From: an uncultured Clostridia bacterium
GTDB taxonomy: Bacteria; Bacillota; Clostridia; UBA1381
Assembly (NCBI GenBank): GCA_947624485.1
Contig: CANQKM010000001.1
Span: 1-64,000, forward strand
Direction: 5' to 3'
Length of the DNA stretch: 64,000 bases
Part shown: positions 3,471 through 9,638 of the stretch, piece by piece
Position numbering within the stretch: the stretch's first letter is position 1
Layout of the letters: every line of letters starts with the position of its first letter
The notes under the pieces: model-generated
Seen by the model: the letters and a program-made list of their open reading frames with translations, nothing else
What the model was told of the DNA's origin: nothing
The model's database searches: none
Made by a program: the position numbers and the translations under genes

Positions 3471-3747
3471 ATTGAGGTGATTGCAAATGAGTGATTAGGG
3501 GCGTAGAAAGTTTTAACCTCATTTTTGAGGTTGGGAGTATAAACATAAGGGGTATGTCGATTTTGGGATTTTCGCTGCTAAAAAAGTAAGTGTTTATGCG
3601 GGTTTCAGTATTCGAAATATCTCATAAATGAGGACATATATATGTATCAAAAAGGCATATCGCAATTCAAGCGATATGCCTTTTCTTGTACCCTGTCCGA
3701 CAGCCTGTCATAAAATTATTGATTATACTGTCTTATGTGAGGTATCC
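3471..3747 (+). repeat. Left copy of long direct repeat flanking phage-tail remnant
   Basis: Aligns by eye with 8864-9148; shared blocks include ATAAACATAAGGGGTATGTCGATTTTGG, GTGTTTATGCGGGTTTCAG, TGTATCAAAAAGGCATATCGC and CCCTGTCCGACAGCCTGTCATAAAATTATTGATTATACTGTCTTATGTGAGGTATCC. Confidence 0.95.
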
Positions 3748-4773
3748 GTTATCTGGAATAACCGTGTCAAGGAAAATATACATCCAAAGCTGCAAGGGAC
3801 GGTGAGCATACCGCCTACGGGCGAGCTTGCCTTGTATGCGAACGGTAATGACATAACAAAGATAGCCGGAGGCTTATCGTGGAAAAACAGCATTTATGAG
3901 CTATCCACAACGATGTCGTTCAGCGTGGCGAAAAGCGATGCGGCGTATTTGAAGGATTTAATGTATACGCCGCAGGTCGGCGATGTTGTGCAGTACGTCA
4001 CGAACGCGGAGATTTTTCGCGGGGTGATAATAAAGGTGGACGACGGTGACAAAGACTCCAACAAATACAGCGTCGTTGATATGGGCTGGTATCTGAACAA
4101 GACAAGTCAGACATATCAGTTTAAGAACATCACGGCGGCGGACGCAATACGGGAATTATGCGCGGATTTATCAATAAATATCGTTATGCTGCCGGAACTG
4201 ACGGCAAACATAAACCAGATATATTTTGACAAGACTATCTCGGCGATTCTGACGGACATCCTCGATAAATGCGGCGGTGATTACAATTACGATTTCGTGC
4301 CGGAGGGATTGCGGATTTACGAGATCGGCGAGCTTTATGCTTATCCGGAATTTTTTATTGCGAGCAATATCGCGCAAGCATACGCGCCGGATTATCGCGG
4401 CGGTGTAAGCCACAGCATATCTATTGAGGAGATGAAAAACTCGATAAAAATCACTTCCGAAAAAGACAGCGTTTATACGGAACTTATGGTACAGCAGAAC
4501 CGCGAGCTGATTGATAAGTACGGATTTTTGCAGAAAATTGTAAAGATAGATCCGGAAAAGGAAAATGCCGAAACCATCGCAAAGCAGGAGCTTAACGATA
4601 ACGCACGGGAAGCTGAGACGTTCAGCTTTGAGATCATCGAAAAATACGACAGCTACACCCGCGCCGGCGAGGTTATGACCGTGGACGATGTGCGGTATGT
4701 TATCGAAAGCACAGACCACTCTATTGTGGACGGTTGGCACTTTGATAAGCTGGAGCTGCGGAAGATAATTTGA
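3628..4773 (+). CDS. Phage tail protein, XkdQ/YqbQ-like; N-terminus as called lies inside the direct repeat and is probably artefactual
   Basis: ELALYANGNDITKIAGGLSWKNSIYELSTTMSFSVAKSD...; followed in order by DUF2577, DUF2634 and XkdT homologs as in PBSX-type tail modules. Confidence 0.78.
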   Translation: MRTYICIKKAYRNSSDMPFLVPCPTACHKIIDYTVLCEVSVIWNNRVKENIHPKLQGTVSIPPTGELALYANGNDITKIAGGLSWKNSIYELSTTMSFSVAKSDAAYLKDLMYTPQVGDVVQYVTNAEIFRGVIIKVDDGDKDSNKYSVVDMGWYLNKTSQTYQFKNITAADAIRELCADLSINIVMLPELTANINQIYFDKTISAILTDILDKCGGDYNYDFVPEGLRIYEIGELYAYPEFFIASNIAQAYAPDYRGGVSHSISIEEMKNSIKITSEKDSVYTELMVQQNRELIDKYGFLQKIVKIDPEKENAETIAKQELNDNAREAETFSFEIIEKYDSYTRAGEVMTVDDVRYVIESTDHSIVDGWHFDKLELRKII

Positions 4774-4776
4774 TTA

Positions 4777-4805
4777 TTGAATTTTGTCGGCTTTTGTGGT
4801 ATAAT
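4777..4805 (+). promoter_or_regulatory. SigA-type promoter of glycosidase cassette
   Basis: TTGAAT - 17 bp - TATAAT, immediately after the XkdQ stop codon. Confidence 0.8.
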
Positions 4806-4836
4806 CAAACGAGTGAAAAAACGGAAAGGGACTTTT

Positions 4837-6681
4837 ATGATGAAAGAACTGATACATCCGCAGGACAGATATAAAATGAATTGGATCGAGGGCGGCACGG
4901 AATGGGGTACGGTAAAATGCGTTCCCCCGCTTGACGTTGAGGTAAAAAGTGAAAAGCGCGGCGATATTTTAAAAGAGGAATATATTTTTACGAACAATAC
5001 CGATAAGGATATATTTACCTGTCTTACAGACATCGGGATATATACTCCGTTTAACGACGATTACACCTCCGCCGAGGAATGTATGACAAATAAATGTCAC
5101 GCTCACATTTGGTGCGGTGGCAAAATATCGTATGTTATGGCGCTGAGAATGGGCGGCGAAGCGCCGCATTTGGGGCTTGTGCTTAACAGTGGTTCAATCG
5201 GCGGGTACAGCGTTGAGCGCGACATAAAAAGAGCGAGCAACGACAGGGGCGATTTCATTCTGCATCCGTCTCCGTTTTCGCTTGCTCCGGGCGAAAGCTA
5301 TACGGTTTCATGGACGCTGTTTTTTCATGACGGCAAGGAAGATTTTTATACAAAAGCGGCTCAATACTGCAAAAAATTTCTCAACGTCCATGCGGATAAA
5401 TATGTGCTGTTCGGCGGTGAAACGTCGAATGTTGAGATTAAGACCAATTTTTCTTTTACGGAAAATGATGTTCAAATATTGCTCAATCACGAAAGAATAG
5501 ATTTTACAGTCAAAAACAATTCGGTTCTCTTTCAAGCAAAAACCGACGCTTGCGGAGAACTGAAATATCAAATATGTATCGGCGGCGTTCACACATATCT
5601 GCGGATGATTGTTTTGCCTGCTTTAACCGAGTTGGCGGCATCGCGCTGTCGGTTTATAACGAAAAAGCAGCAATATAGCAAAGACAGCAGTAGGCTAAAC
5701 GGAGCGTATCTGGTTTATGACAATGAGAGCAATTCGATGTTCTACTCTCCGCTTTATGACTATAACGGCGGCAGGGAACGAATAGGAATGGGGCTTTTGA
5801 TTGCGTTGTATTTGCAGACGAAACATGACGCGGATATGGAAAAATCGCTTTCAGATTACGCGGAATATGTGCGGCGGGAGCTTGTAAATGAGGAAACGGG
5901 CGAGGTGTATAACGATTATATGCGCGACGACAGCTATAAGCGATTATACAATGCGCCGTGGTTCGCGCTGTTTTATGTTGAGATGTATAAGCTGTATAAA
6001 GATCGCGGTTATCTGATTACGGCATATAAAATTATAATGAATTATTACGAAAACGGCGGCTCGGAATTTTATCCTATAGAGCTGCCGGCAGCCGAATTGA
6101 TAAACCTTATGAGATCCGAGGATATGAACGCGGAAAAGCTGACGGAGCAATTTCTGCGCCACGCCGACCGCATTGCCGAAACCGGCACAAAATACCCAAG
6201 CTCGGAGGTAAATTACGAGCAAAGCATAGTCGCTCCCGCGGCGGATATTTTGTTAAAAGCGTATATGCTCACGAATGATGAAAAATATCTTAGCGCGGCA
6301 AAAAGGCAGATTGACGTGCTTGAATTGTTTAACGGATTGCAGCCGGATTATCATTTATATGAAACGGCGATTCGTCATTGGGACGGATACTGGTTCGGGA
6401 AAAGAAGGATGTACGGCGACACATTCCCGCATTACTGGAGCGCGCTTACAGCGAACGTGTATTCCGATTATGCGCGGATCACTCATGATAATGAATATCT
6501 GAAAAAAGCGGAATATTCCTTCAGAGGAGTAATGAGTCTGTTTATGCTCGACGGAAGCGCGTCATGCGCGTATGTTTATCCGGTAACTGTGAACGGCGAA
6601 AGAGCGGAATACTACGATCCGTATGCCAACGATCAGGATTGGGGCTTGTATTATATGCTGAAGTATATGGGGAATACATAA
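4837..6681 (+). CDS. Six-hairpin glycosidase-like protein (putative polysaccharide-active)
   Basis: MMKELIHPQDRYKMNWIEGGTEWG...; N-terminal beta-rich domain and C-terminal alpha-helical repeats typical of six-hairpin folds (RDIKRASNDRGDF, YNAPWFALFYVEMYKLYKDRGYL, WDGYWFGKRRMYGDTFPHYWSALTANVY). RBS GGAAAGGG. The ORF-track start at 4777 overlaps the promoter. Confidence 0.65.
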   Translation: MMKELIHPQDRYKMNWIEGGTEWGTVKCVPPLDVEVKSEKRGDILKEEYIFTNNTDKDIFTCLTDIGIYTPFNDDYTSAEECMTNKCHAHIWCGGKISYVMALRMGGEAPHLGLVLNSGSIGGYSVERDIKRASNDRGDFILHPSPFSLAPGESYTVSWTLFFHDGKEDFYTKAAQYCKKFLNVHADKYVLFGGETSNVEIKTNFSFTENDVQILLNHERIDFTVKNNSVLFQAKTDACGELKYQICIGGVHTYLRMIVLPALTELAASRCRFITKKQQYSKDSSRLNGAYLVYDNESNSMFYSPLYDYNGGRERIGMGLLIALYLQTKHDADMEKSLSDYAEYVRRELVNEETGEVYNDYMRDDSYKRLYNAPWFALFYVEMYKLYKDRGYLITAYKIIMNYYENGGSEFYPIELPAAELINLMRSEDMNAEKLTEQFLRHADRIAETGTKYPSSEVNYEQSIVAPAADILLKAYMLTNDEKYLSAAKRQIDVLELFNGLQPDYHLYETAIRHWDGYWFGKRRMYGDTFPHYWSALTANVYSDYARITHDNEYLKKAEYSFRGVMSLFMLDGSASCAYVYPVTVNGERAEYYDPYANDQDWGLYYMLKYMGNT

Positions 6682-6737
6682 TAACAGATGAAAAAAATAG
6701 AAATAAAATTCTTGTTTGTTAGGCAGGATAAGACATA

Positions 6738-6766
6738 AGCGATTACCAATCGGTAGTCGCTTTTTT
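6738..6766 (+). terminator. Rho-independent terminator after glycosidase
   Basis: AGCGATTACC-AATC-GGTAGTCGCT followed by TTTTTT. Confidence 0.88.
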
Positions 6767-6778
6767 GTGGGAGGAAAC

Positions 6779-7057
6779 ATGGACGCAATAACGGAACTGG
6801 CGAGGCAGATACGCGAGCGGGATAATCCCTCGCCGTACACGCCGATGTTCGGCATAATAATTTCACTGCCGGAGCTTAAAATTCAGCTCGGCAGCCGAGT
6901 ATTCCTTGACGCGGACGATGTGAAGGCGACATTCGACCTTTACGAAACGCGACAGCTTGAGCATGGCGGAGTGGAGTATGTGAATCTAAACAAAGAGGTC
7001 GTGTTGCTGCCGTATTCGGACGATAATAAATTTGTAGTAATTGGGGTGGTGCAGTGA
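6779..7057 (+). CDS. Phage tail-associated DUF2577-like protein (XkdR position)
   Basis: MDAITELARQIRERDNPSPYTPMFGIIISLPELKIQLGSRVFLDADDV; RBS GGGAGG. Confidence 0.75.
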   Translation: MDAITELARQIRERDNPSPYTPMFGIIISLPELKIQLGSRVFLDADDVKATFDLYETRQLEHGGVEYVNLNKEVVLLPYSDDNKFVVIGVVQ

Positions 7058-7431
7058 AAAAGACATTTGATTTCGATTTCAAAAGCGGCGAATTCAATAT
7101 GAAAAATGGGAATCCCGTGGTGCTGGAAAGTGTGGACGCTCTGAAAATGTGGATACAGAAATGTATCCGGACGCAGCTTAACCGATACTCCATCTATAAA
7201 GGCAAACAGTACGGCGCAAACATTGAGGATTTGGTAATCGGACACAGCTATGGGAACGGTTTTGCCGAATCAGAGCTGCGCCGCGAGATTGAGGAAGCAC
7301 TGCTCAGACACGAGAATATTCTGAGTCTGGGCGATTTTTCTGTATCTACCAAGCGCAAGCTGATGGAGGTTTCATTCACTCTTACCACCACATACGGCGA
7401 GCTTTCGGAGGTGTATGTGTATGACGCTTAG
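7054..7431 (+). CDS. DUF2634-like phage tail/baseplate protein (XkdS)
   Basis: KKTFDFDFKSGEFNMKNGNPVVLESVDALKMWIQKCIRTQLNRYSIY; adjacent to the XkdT gene. Confidence 0.8.
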   Translation: MKKTFDFDFKSGEFNMKNGNPVVLESVDALKMWIQKCIRTQLNRYSIYKGKQYGANIEDLVIGHSYGNGFAESELRREIEEALLRHENILSLGDFSVSTKRKLMEVSFTLTTTYGELSEVYVYDA

Positions 7432-8887
7432 TGAAATATTTGAATATATGCTTGCGGGCGTACCGGATGATTACGACATTTCGGCAGGCTCGTTTTTTTA
7501 TGATTTGCTTTATCCGGTCGCGGAACAGATATATTTCCTGCAGCAGAAAATACAGGACTTATCGACTAACACATTCGCGCTGACCGCAGTTGGCGAATAC
7601 CTCGACCGCAAGGCAGCCGAGCAGGGCTTGACGCGCCGCGCGGGTACGTTTGCGAGGGGTATGGTTCGGATCTACGGCAATCGCGGCGAGATTGTCAATA
7701 GGAACGCAAAGGTCGCGGCGGATAATATTCTGTTTGCCATAGACGAAACGGCGACCATTCCCGAAGCGGGATATGTGGACGTGGGTGCTACCTGTATCAT
7801 GGTTGGGAGTGTCGGCAACGTCAAGGTCGGTGAAATAAACCGCTTTCCGGTTACGCTGCCGGGACTTACTGCGGTTGAGAATATAACGGAATTTACGGGC
7901 GGTTATCCGCAGGAGAGCGATGTTGACCTGCTGGAGCGATATATCGAAAAAGTATCACATCCGACAGCCAGCGGAAACATCTACCATTACATCGAATGGG
8001 CGAAGGAAGTCAGCGGCGTCGGCGATGTGCGCGTTATACCGCTCTGGAATGGTAACGGTACGGTCAAAGTCGTTATCGTTGATTCCGACAATCAGCCCGC
8101 CGGTGAGGATTTGATAGAAGCGGTCAAGTCGCACATTGAGGAACAGCGACCAATCGGAGCGGAGGTTACCGTAGTGAGCGCGACTGCTCTTACTATTAAC
8201 ATATCTGTAAATATCATCACAGACGGTTCGGACGGGATCCAAGACGCGGTTGAGGAAAGCATCAAAGGCTATCTCGCGGACGAGGCGTTAAAGAAATCGT
8301 ATGTGTCCTACGCAAAGGTCGGCAGCTTTATCCTGTCGGTCGCGGGCGTAGAGGATACCACGTTGTCTGTTAAACTGTCAAAGGATGCGACCGAAAATGA
8401 CATAGCGTTTATTCGCAGTCTTGCGGGGAATCATTCCTTTGCAGATTACAGAGAGAGCAACCGACAAAACAGAGGCACATATTGGCTATTCAATATTTTA
8501 GTGTATGGATTTTTAGCTATTATAGCGCTAATTGCTGTATTTAACATAATGAATTGTATCTCCATGAGCGTGTCGGCAAAGCTAAAGCAATACGGTGCAA
8601 TGCGCGCAATAGGCATGGACAGCGGCCAGTTTACGAAGATGATAACGGCAGAAACAATCACCTATGCTGCGCTTGGCTGTCTTATTGGGATTGCCGCAGG
8701 TCTGCCGCTCAACAGACAGTTGTTTGAAACATTGGTTACATCGCACTTTGGTGTTCCGTGGACATTTCCTGTTTTCCCGGTTATTATAATACTGATTTTG
8801 ATTGCCACTGCTTCCGCCGCTGCGGTATATGCCCCTTCGAGGCGGATTAAAAATATGTCGGTGATAGAAGTGATCGCGGATGAGTGA
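7421..8887 (+). CDS. Chimeric ORF: baseplate J/XkdT-like protein fused to C-terminal domain of an FtsX-type ABC transporter permease
   Basis: N-part: SEIFEYMLAGVPDDYDISAGSFFYDLLYPVAEQI...AAEQGLTRRAGTFARG (XkdT). C-part: FADYRESNRQNRGTYWLFNILVYGFLAIIALIAVFNIMNCISMSVSAKLKQYGAMRAIGMD...SVIEVIADE (FtsX permease). Confidence 0.85.
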   Translation: MTLSEIFEYMLAGVPDDYDISAGSFFYDLLYPVAEQIYFLQQKIQDLSTNTFALTAVGEYLDRKAAEQGLTRRAGTFARGMVRIYGNRGEIVNRNAKVAADNILFAIDETATIPEAGYVDVGATCIMVGSVGNVKVGEINRFPVTLPGLTAVENITEFTGGYPQESDVDLLERYIEKVSHPTASGNIYHYIEWAKEVSGVGDVRVIPLWNGNGTVKVVIVDSDNQPAGEDLIEAVKSHIEEQRPIGAEVTVVSATALTINISVNIITDGSDGIQDAVEESIKGYLADEALKKSYVSYAKVGSFILSVAGVEDTTLSVKLSKDATENDIAFIRSLAGNHSFADYRESNRQNRGTYWLFNILVYGFLAIIALIAVFNIMNCISMSVSAKLKQYGAMRAIGMDSGQFTKMITAETITYAALGCLIGIAAGLPLNRQLFETLVTSHFGVPWTFPVFPVIIILILIATASAAAVYAPSRRIKNMSVIEVIADE

Positions 8888-9148
8888 TTTGAGGACGTAG
8901 AAAATTTTAACCGCATTTTCGAGAGTAGGAATATAAACATAAGGGGTATGTCGATTTTGGCATTTTTGTCATTAAAAAATCAAGTGTTTATGCGGGTTTC
9001 AGAACTATAAATATCTTAATAAATGTGGACATATATATATGTATCAAAAAGGCATATCGCTTGAATGAATTGCGATATGCCTTTTCTTGCACCCTGTCCG
9101 ACAGCCTGTCATAAAATTATTGATTATACTGTCTTATGTGAGGTATCC
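8864..9148 (+). repeat. Right copy of long direct repeat
   Basis: See 3471-3747; begins in the last codons of the permease (IEVIADE, against IEVIANE in the left copy). Confidence 0.95.
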
Positions 9149-9297
9149 ATTCTGGCACTCCTTGTAAAATGGTTCTTGTTCTGTTTTTAGGAAAGAAAAA
9201 AGCAAGATATTGTCAAAACATCTTGCGATTTCTTATAGCATTGTTTGTAGCTGTCCTAAAATCCTTGATTTTATGCGGTTTTTTAGACCTTCCTTAA

Positions 9298-9638
9298 TTA
9301 TTATTACGGAAGCGGAGCAAAAGGAAGTTTCGGAAAAGATTACGGCGCTCCAAAACGAATTGGACAGCGACATGAGCAAAGCGGTCACTTCCGATATGTT
9401 TATGGCTTCCGTCCGCAAATATACGCGGGCGAGGAAATTAACGCCGAGAATGCTCAATGAGCTTATAGAGAAAATCGAAGTCCATCAGGCGGAAAAGATT
9501 GACGGCAAAACCGTACAGAAACATACAATTTACTACAACTGCATAGGAAATATCGAAATCCCCGACCTTGACAAGCTGCCGGATAATAACGTATCGCTTA
9601 ACACAAGGCAGGGCGTAGATGTTCACTATGCGGCATAG
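9298..9638 (+). pseudogene. C-terminal remnant of a large serine recombinase
   Basis: ITEAEQKEVSEKITALQNELDSDM...SVRKYTRARKLTPRMLNELIEKIEVHQAEKIDG...IYYNCIGNIEIPD; the catalytic domain is absent. Confidence 0.8.

Follow-up and report, generated by a model that had tools for sequence, protein, structure and literature searches.

Phage morons are units of a promoter, a gene and a terminator set between phage genes. The term is used in PMC9122126, where P2/P4 hotspots are described as regions of about 1-5 kb that are bounded by two conserved phage genes, show high turnover and hold small systems, including TIR and other defence genes. The P2 hotspot lies between gpA and gpQ next to cos, and a Vibrionaceae site and a Bacillus site near the integrase were also described (PMC9122126). 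The window analysed here is a 64-kb stretch of DNA at the start of a 404-kb contig, belonging to a 2.7-Mb draft genome with a completeness of about 91%. It shares gene order and gene families with the PBSX-type tail module xkdQ-xkdR-xkdS-xkdT, but holds only a remnant, in which XkdQ and XkdT are truncated and the slot between xkdQ and xkdR is filled. Like phage morons, the insertion lies between genes that are adjacent in relatives, has its own signals and carries a cargo outside the virion module; unlike in classic morons, the signals in the clade of the window phage appear to be retained by the phage while the gene swaps. High turnover between conserved genes and TIR/defence cargo are shared with the P2/P4 hotspots (PMC9122126), whereas the xkdQ-xkdR slot belongs to another phage group, is situated inside a baseplate operon within a frame of promoter and terminator, and has many metabolic or transport cargos; that paper mentions neither terminators nor Clostridia. 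Monoglobales phage CHVD 5762 (PV036456.1), with an XkdQ 75% identical, shares the frame of promoter and terminator at its xkdQ-xkdR junction, but it is a complete 52-kb phage whose slot contains small ORFs only and no lyase. As judged from titles and abstracts, no description of the slot was found in the literature on xkdQ/xkdR, DUF2577 or Heliusvirales. We consider it highly probable that the locus represents a moron slot in a clade of contractile-tailed temperate phages, with fixed signals and exchanged genes, which here holds a host-type PL27 lyase.

The cassette and the tail-gene remnant

The xkdQ stop, the promoter, the reading frame and the xkdR start of the original prediction were all found in place (Table 1), except that the protein is 614 and not 615 aa long, because the stop codon occupies 6679-6681. 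The xkdQ-like frame ends with TGA at 4771-4773 and the -35 element begins 3 nt past it; an RBS-like AAAGGGAC precedes the ATG. The predicted stem-loop and T-run were also present ahead of xkdR, with the coordinates revised as in Table 1. Observed scores were matched by none of 60 shuffles of the 5' stretch (promoter) and none of 25 shuffles of the 3' stretch (terminator). The GC content of the gap was 43.8%, versus 46.8% for xkdQ. At the sequence level, the cassette possesses its own promoter and its own terminator, and it separates two genes that are neighbours in related phages, more than half of 59 XkdQ clusters having an empty junction.

Table 1. Coordinates of the cassette, the tail-gene remnant and the flanking repeats in the 64-kb window
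Feature	Position	Strand	Basis
Left flanking repeat copy	3471..3750		86% identical to 8864-9151
XkdQ/YqbQ-like tail protein, 5'-truncated	3751..4773	+	Pfam YQBQ 2e-36; PHROG 400 tail 5.5e-49
Sigma-70-type promoter, TTGAAT-17-TATAAT with TG extension before the -10	4777..4805	+	sequence; 0/60 shuffles reach score
Cargo gene, 614-aa PL27-type lyase, predicted L-rhamnose-alpha-1,4-D-glucuronate lyase	4837..6681	+	phmmer to PDB 5no8 E=4.5e-134
Intrinsic terminator stem-loop, then T-run	6737..6762	+	stem AAGCGATTAC-CAAT-CGGTAGTCGCTT
XkdR-like DUF2577 protein	6779..7057	+	Pfam DUF2577 1.5e-5; PHROG 579 4.5e-9
XkdS-like sheath initiator / baseplate wedge	7054..7431	+	Pfam PF10934 5.9e-30
XkdT-like Baseplate J protein, 3'-truncated	7415..8355	+	Pfam Baseplate_J 1.9e-65
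FtsX/MacB-type ABC permease, C-terminal part, in frame with XkdT	8355..8887	+	Pfam FtsX 2.1e-19
Right flanking repeat copy	8864..9151		direct repeat of 3471-3750

Matches in Pfam and PHROG bear out the proposed phage tail setting as far as the xkdQ and xkdR flanks are concerned, but the phage itself is a decayed fragment, a 4.6-kb tail remnant (about 3749-8355), with XkdT fused to a permease. The listed ORF start of the XkdQ-like frame (3628) falls inside the flanking repeat, homology to intact relatives begins at about 3749, and an extra N-terminal domain present in relatives with XkdQ 72-85% identical is absent from the window. At the other edge, DNA homology of XkdT to the intact phage L113 ends at 8356, and the region 8355-9139 has 94% DNA identity with the end of a longer permease relative that this genome carries on contig C2. 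The frames of xkdR and xkdS are intact. The sheath and portal proteins of CHVD 5762 had no match in the genome of the window, an absence that is not proof because the assembly is only about 91% complete; as a control, the same sheath query matched 3 of 4 relatives. With XkdT truncated and sheath and portal not found, the remnant lacks the complete sheath and baseplate gene set of a functional PBSX-type tail module. Since the genome is a draft, the contig end is about 3.7 kb away and repeats flank the remnant, its outer edges may have been affected by assembly.

Further copies or parts of the flanking repeat were located on contigs C2, C3, C5, C16 and C23. A 72-bp part of this dispersed repeat, ending GAGGTATCC, was common to copies with different right neighbours, as would be the case for a putative mobile-element end. 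A DUF4368 piece at 9210-9638, adjoining the right repeat, probably represents the C-terminal end of a serine recombinase. In addition, the region 727-2419 contains relaxase, MobC/NikA-like and HTH repressor genes and is 88% identical to C2:166000-167539, a copy upstream of the longer ABC permease; the two are probably related mobilisable elements.

An xkdQ fragment 99.9% identical to that of the window was observed in L115 (6990-7839), with a left edge matching window position 3749 within about 2 nt, so that two unlike flanks join xkdQ at one point. This fragment lies beside a gene that its sequence marks as ACR3-like, at the end of a 113-kb contig from a rabbit Gemmiger bin; the lyase was sought in this bin and not found, the contig stopping inside xkdQ. 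In the intact relatives L113, L114, L066, L068 and L120, XkdQ is fused to varied N-terminal domains, some of them cell-wall-hydrolase-like by eye. Because these domains vary among intact relatives, this XkdQ part of the tail appears to be exchanged as well.

Occupancy and cargo of the xkdQ-xkdR junction in relatives

Relatives of XkdQ were drawn from IMG/VR, genome contigs, the same bacterial family and phage CHVD 5762, and clustering at 95% identity gave 59 clusters; XkdS and XkdT used as IMG/VR queries yielded no confirmed match, whereas the XkdQ query worked. The junction was bimodal, being either closed, with xkdQ and xkdR adjoining or overlapping, or opened by a gap of about 0.5-3.6 kb. 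By distance, 26 clusters were occupied, but one of them (L133) has a longer XkdQ without cargo, hence about 25 of 59, the remainder essentially abutting; L171 likewise has a longer XkdQ without cargo, its cluster-mate L172 being occupied. Occupancy by distance amounted to 25/43 clusters at 40% identity or above and 1/16 below, i.e. it is largely limited to the clade around the window phage. Two loci were unusual: the 61-nt slot of L093 (7997-8057) has a terminator but is free of cargo and may be what is left after cargo was lost, and in L129 (7937-10056) the cargo runs in the opposite direction and the customary promoter and terminator are missing. Cargo between xkdQ and xkdR thus recurs in many other genomes; the original prediction had the form of the moron right and underestimated its generality across phages. 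No PL27 gene was found in the slot of another phage among the relatives compared.

The nearest occupied relatives each had a different cargo. Slots contained 1) a Zn-dependent dehydrogenase (L113), 2) a Y-family polymerase and an acetyltransferase (L116), 3) an MNT/HepT toxin-antitoxin pair (L114), 4) a Phd/ParE toxin-antitoxin pair (L120), 5) a 328-aa membrane protein (L066), and 6) SSB, CrcB and an acetyltransferase (L068), CrcB being seen again in L177 (by Pfam in L068, judged from sequence in L177). Other cargos were MarR with an MFS exporter, a CNNM transporter, DUF1643, a GTPase and an RCC1-repeat protein. As in diversity hotspots, cargo turnover was high between two conserved genes and antiviral systems were present, the latter by homology only, namely Avs5 (E=1.9e-67) and bSEFIR/TIR. 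So varied a mixture has no common tail function, and since related phages hold quite different genes, the slot looks like a general loading dock. The phages with an empty junction suggest that the cargo is dispensable for the phage.

A predicted PL27 lyase as cargo

PL27 enzymes free rhamnose from gum arabic by beta-elimination (PMC8377490). The window protein alone matched the PL27 lyase BACCELL_00875 (PDB 5NO8/5NOK; PMC8377490) with E=4.5e-134 in phmmer against 5NO8, most of the protein being aligned and 235 of 562 residues identical (42%), and a profile of ten lyase relatives matched the same structure with E=5e-188. The enzyme had been taken for a six-hairpin glycosidase; instead, its sequence belongs with PL27, and it is predicted to be an L-rhamnose-alpha-1,4-D-glucuronate lyase. 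An N-terminal beta-sandwich followed by an (alpha/alpha)6 barrel would be implied by 42% identity to a solved structure. A Pfam hint of a C5-epimerase C-terminus was below the cut-off, and PL27 was preferred.

Compared with PL27 proteins of the BACCELL_00875 type, the window protein has a shorter N-terminus and no signal peptide, and in contrast to Bacteroides PL27 its gene is found in Clostridia, inside a prophage remnant. No hydrophobic stretch was present at the N-terminus, and neither Pfam nor PHROG gave a recognised tail domain. Without a signal stretch, the likely substrate would be an imported oligosaccharide. Within the same bacterial family, related lyase genes lie on the chromosome, several of them adjoining GH31, FGGY kinase and fucose-isomerase-like genes; searches of IMG/VR (single protein and profile) and of the phage collection (protein) gave no viral relative. 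From these comparisons, the lyase is most likely a captured host gene helping lysogens to use plant arabinogalactan sugars: its intracellular substrates would be plant oligosaccharides that have been imported, and by taking rhamnose caps off glucuronate it would benefit the lysogen and not the virion.

Ownership of the promoter and terminator

Promoter scores of at least 12 (extended sigma-70) were obtained for 63% of 27 occupied 5' ends, as compared with 0.4% of shuffles and 0/22 empty loci. Strict terminators, finishing 16-32 nt ahead of xkdR, were detected at 17/23 occupied 3' ends (0.5% of shuffles, 0/22 empty loci), and five of the remaining six had a terminator seen by eye that the strict scan had missed, the exception being L129. 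In most occupied loci the -35 element started 2-8 nt past the xkdQ stop. Signal stretches of loci with different cargo aligned above cargo-interior controls, the sequence just inside the cargo much less so. In the close group, 13/15 pairs for the terminator and 5/15 for the promoter were beyond the 99th percentile of the control; this is the fairer test, since the second-clade comparison is partly circular, its nine loci having been chosen for similar promoter position. DNA homology between the window and L113 runs through the -10 element to 4805 and is back at the terminator, at 6738. The type of terminator stem goes with the phage and not with the cargo, the same type occurring before xkdR in relatives with other cargo. 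Because the signals are alike across different cargos and absent from empty loci, they look like a fixed frame of the phage, and we lean towards the junction being a phage-owned expression dock, in which the phage retains promoter and terminator and nothing but the coding sequence changes. The original prediction, a unit of promoter, gene and terminator set between genes that adjoin each other in relatives, stands as to the unit, but the signals seem to belong to the phage frame instead of being borne by the cargo. That the promoter and terminator arrived with the lyase as one autonomous unit, and likewise with the other cargos, is a more doubtful reading. It would account for the presence of both signals in nearly every occupied locus and of neither in empty ones, and the promoters farther from the xkdQ stop in L049, L064, L078, L088, L114 and L120 are as independent insertions predict; it fits poorly with terminator stretches that align far above controls next to unrelated cargo, with a stem type that tracks the phage, and with homology to L113 that stops and restarts at the signals.

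Three other explanations were also weighed. Phage tail enzymes that cut polysaccharides exist, and this precedent, together with the position of the gene in a tail module, might point to a tail-associated depolymerase or receptor-processing enzyme working in the virion. However, the dehydrogenase, the MFS exporter and Avs5, all unrelated, fill the same place, the gene has its own promoter and terminator, its product has neither a signal peptide nor a recognised tail domain, and its homologs lie on chromosomes, where several have sugar catabolism genes as neighbours; a virion role is therefore very unlikely, as is the tail-linked processing of receptors or wall polysaccharides that had been suggested. 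The lyase is not a standard tail gene, and its own promoter and terminator sequences speak against the alternative of a tail gene co-transcribed with xkdQ. We give equally little credence to the view that the lyase is a normal gene of the chromosome and that misassembly or a chance rearrangement brought phage genes to its two sides. Its homologs of the same family are indeed chromosomal and the outer edges of the remnant are rearranged and within repeats, but the lyase lies exactly where many independent genomes also carry cargo, flanked by the expected promoter and terminator, and misassembly would not produce such recurrence. The intact xkdR and xkdS frames could indicate a domesticated tail device served by the lyase; this is hardly credible, given that XkdQ and XkdT are truncated, XkdT is joined to a permease end, and searches of the assembly gave neither sheath nor portal.

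For the favoured moron slot, the following course may be proposed. The phages concerned would be those of gut Clostridia (Monoglobales and relatives), with CHVD 5762 as the nearest named phage. The promoter just past the xkdQ stop would drive, in the lysogen, whichever gene fills the slot, and the terminator ahead of xkdR would halt the slot transcript before the baseplate genes. While the signals would stay with the phage, the gene between them would be exchanged, probably by homologous recombination via the shared flanks. Later, the prophage presumably decayed to the 4.6-kb tail fragment, the cassette staying intact.

The slot is an exact, searchable site in phages of gut Clostridia that collects accessory genes, including defence-like genes, exporters and carbohydrate enzymes, and a survey of it across genomes would yield candidate lysogenic-conversion and anti-phage genes. 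It also presents a plant-polysaccharide enzyme, as predicted here, as phage cargo. The fixed frame suggests how morons may swap while control signals remain; if the junction is indeed a phage-owned dock, temperate gut phages could gain and express host, metabolic or defence genes without cargo-borne signals.
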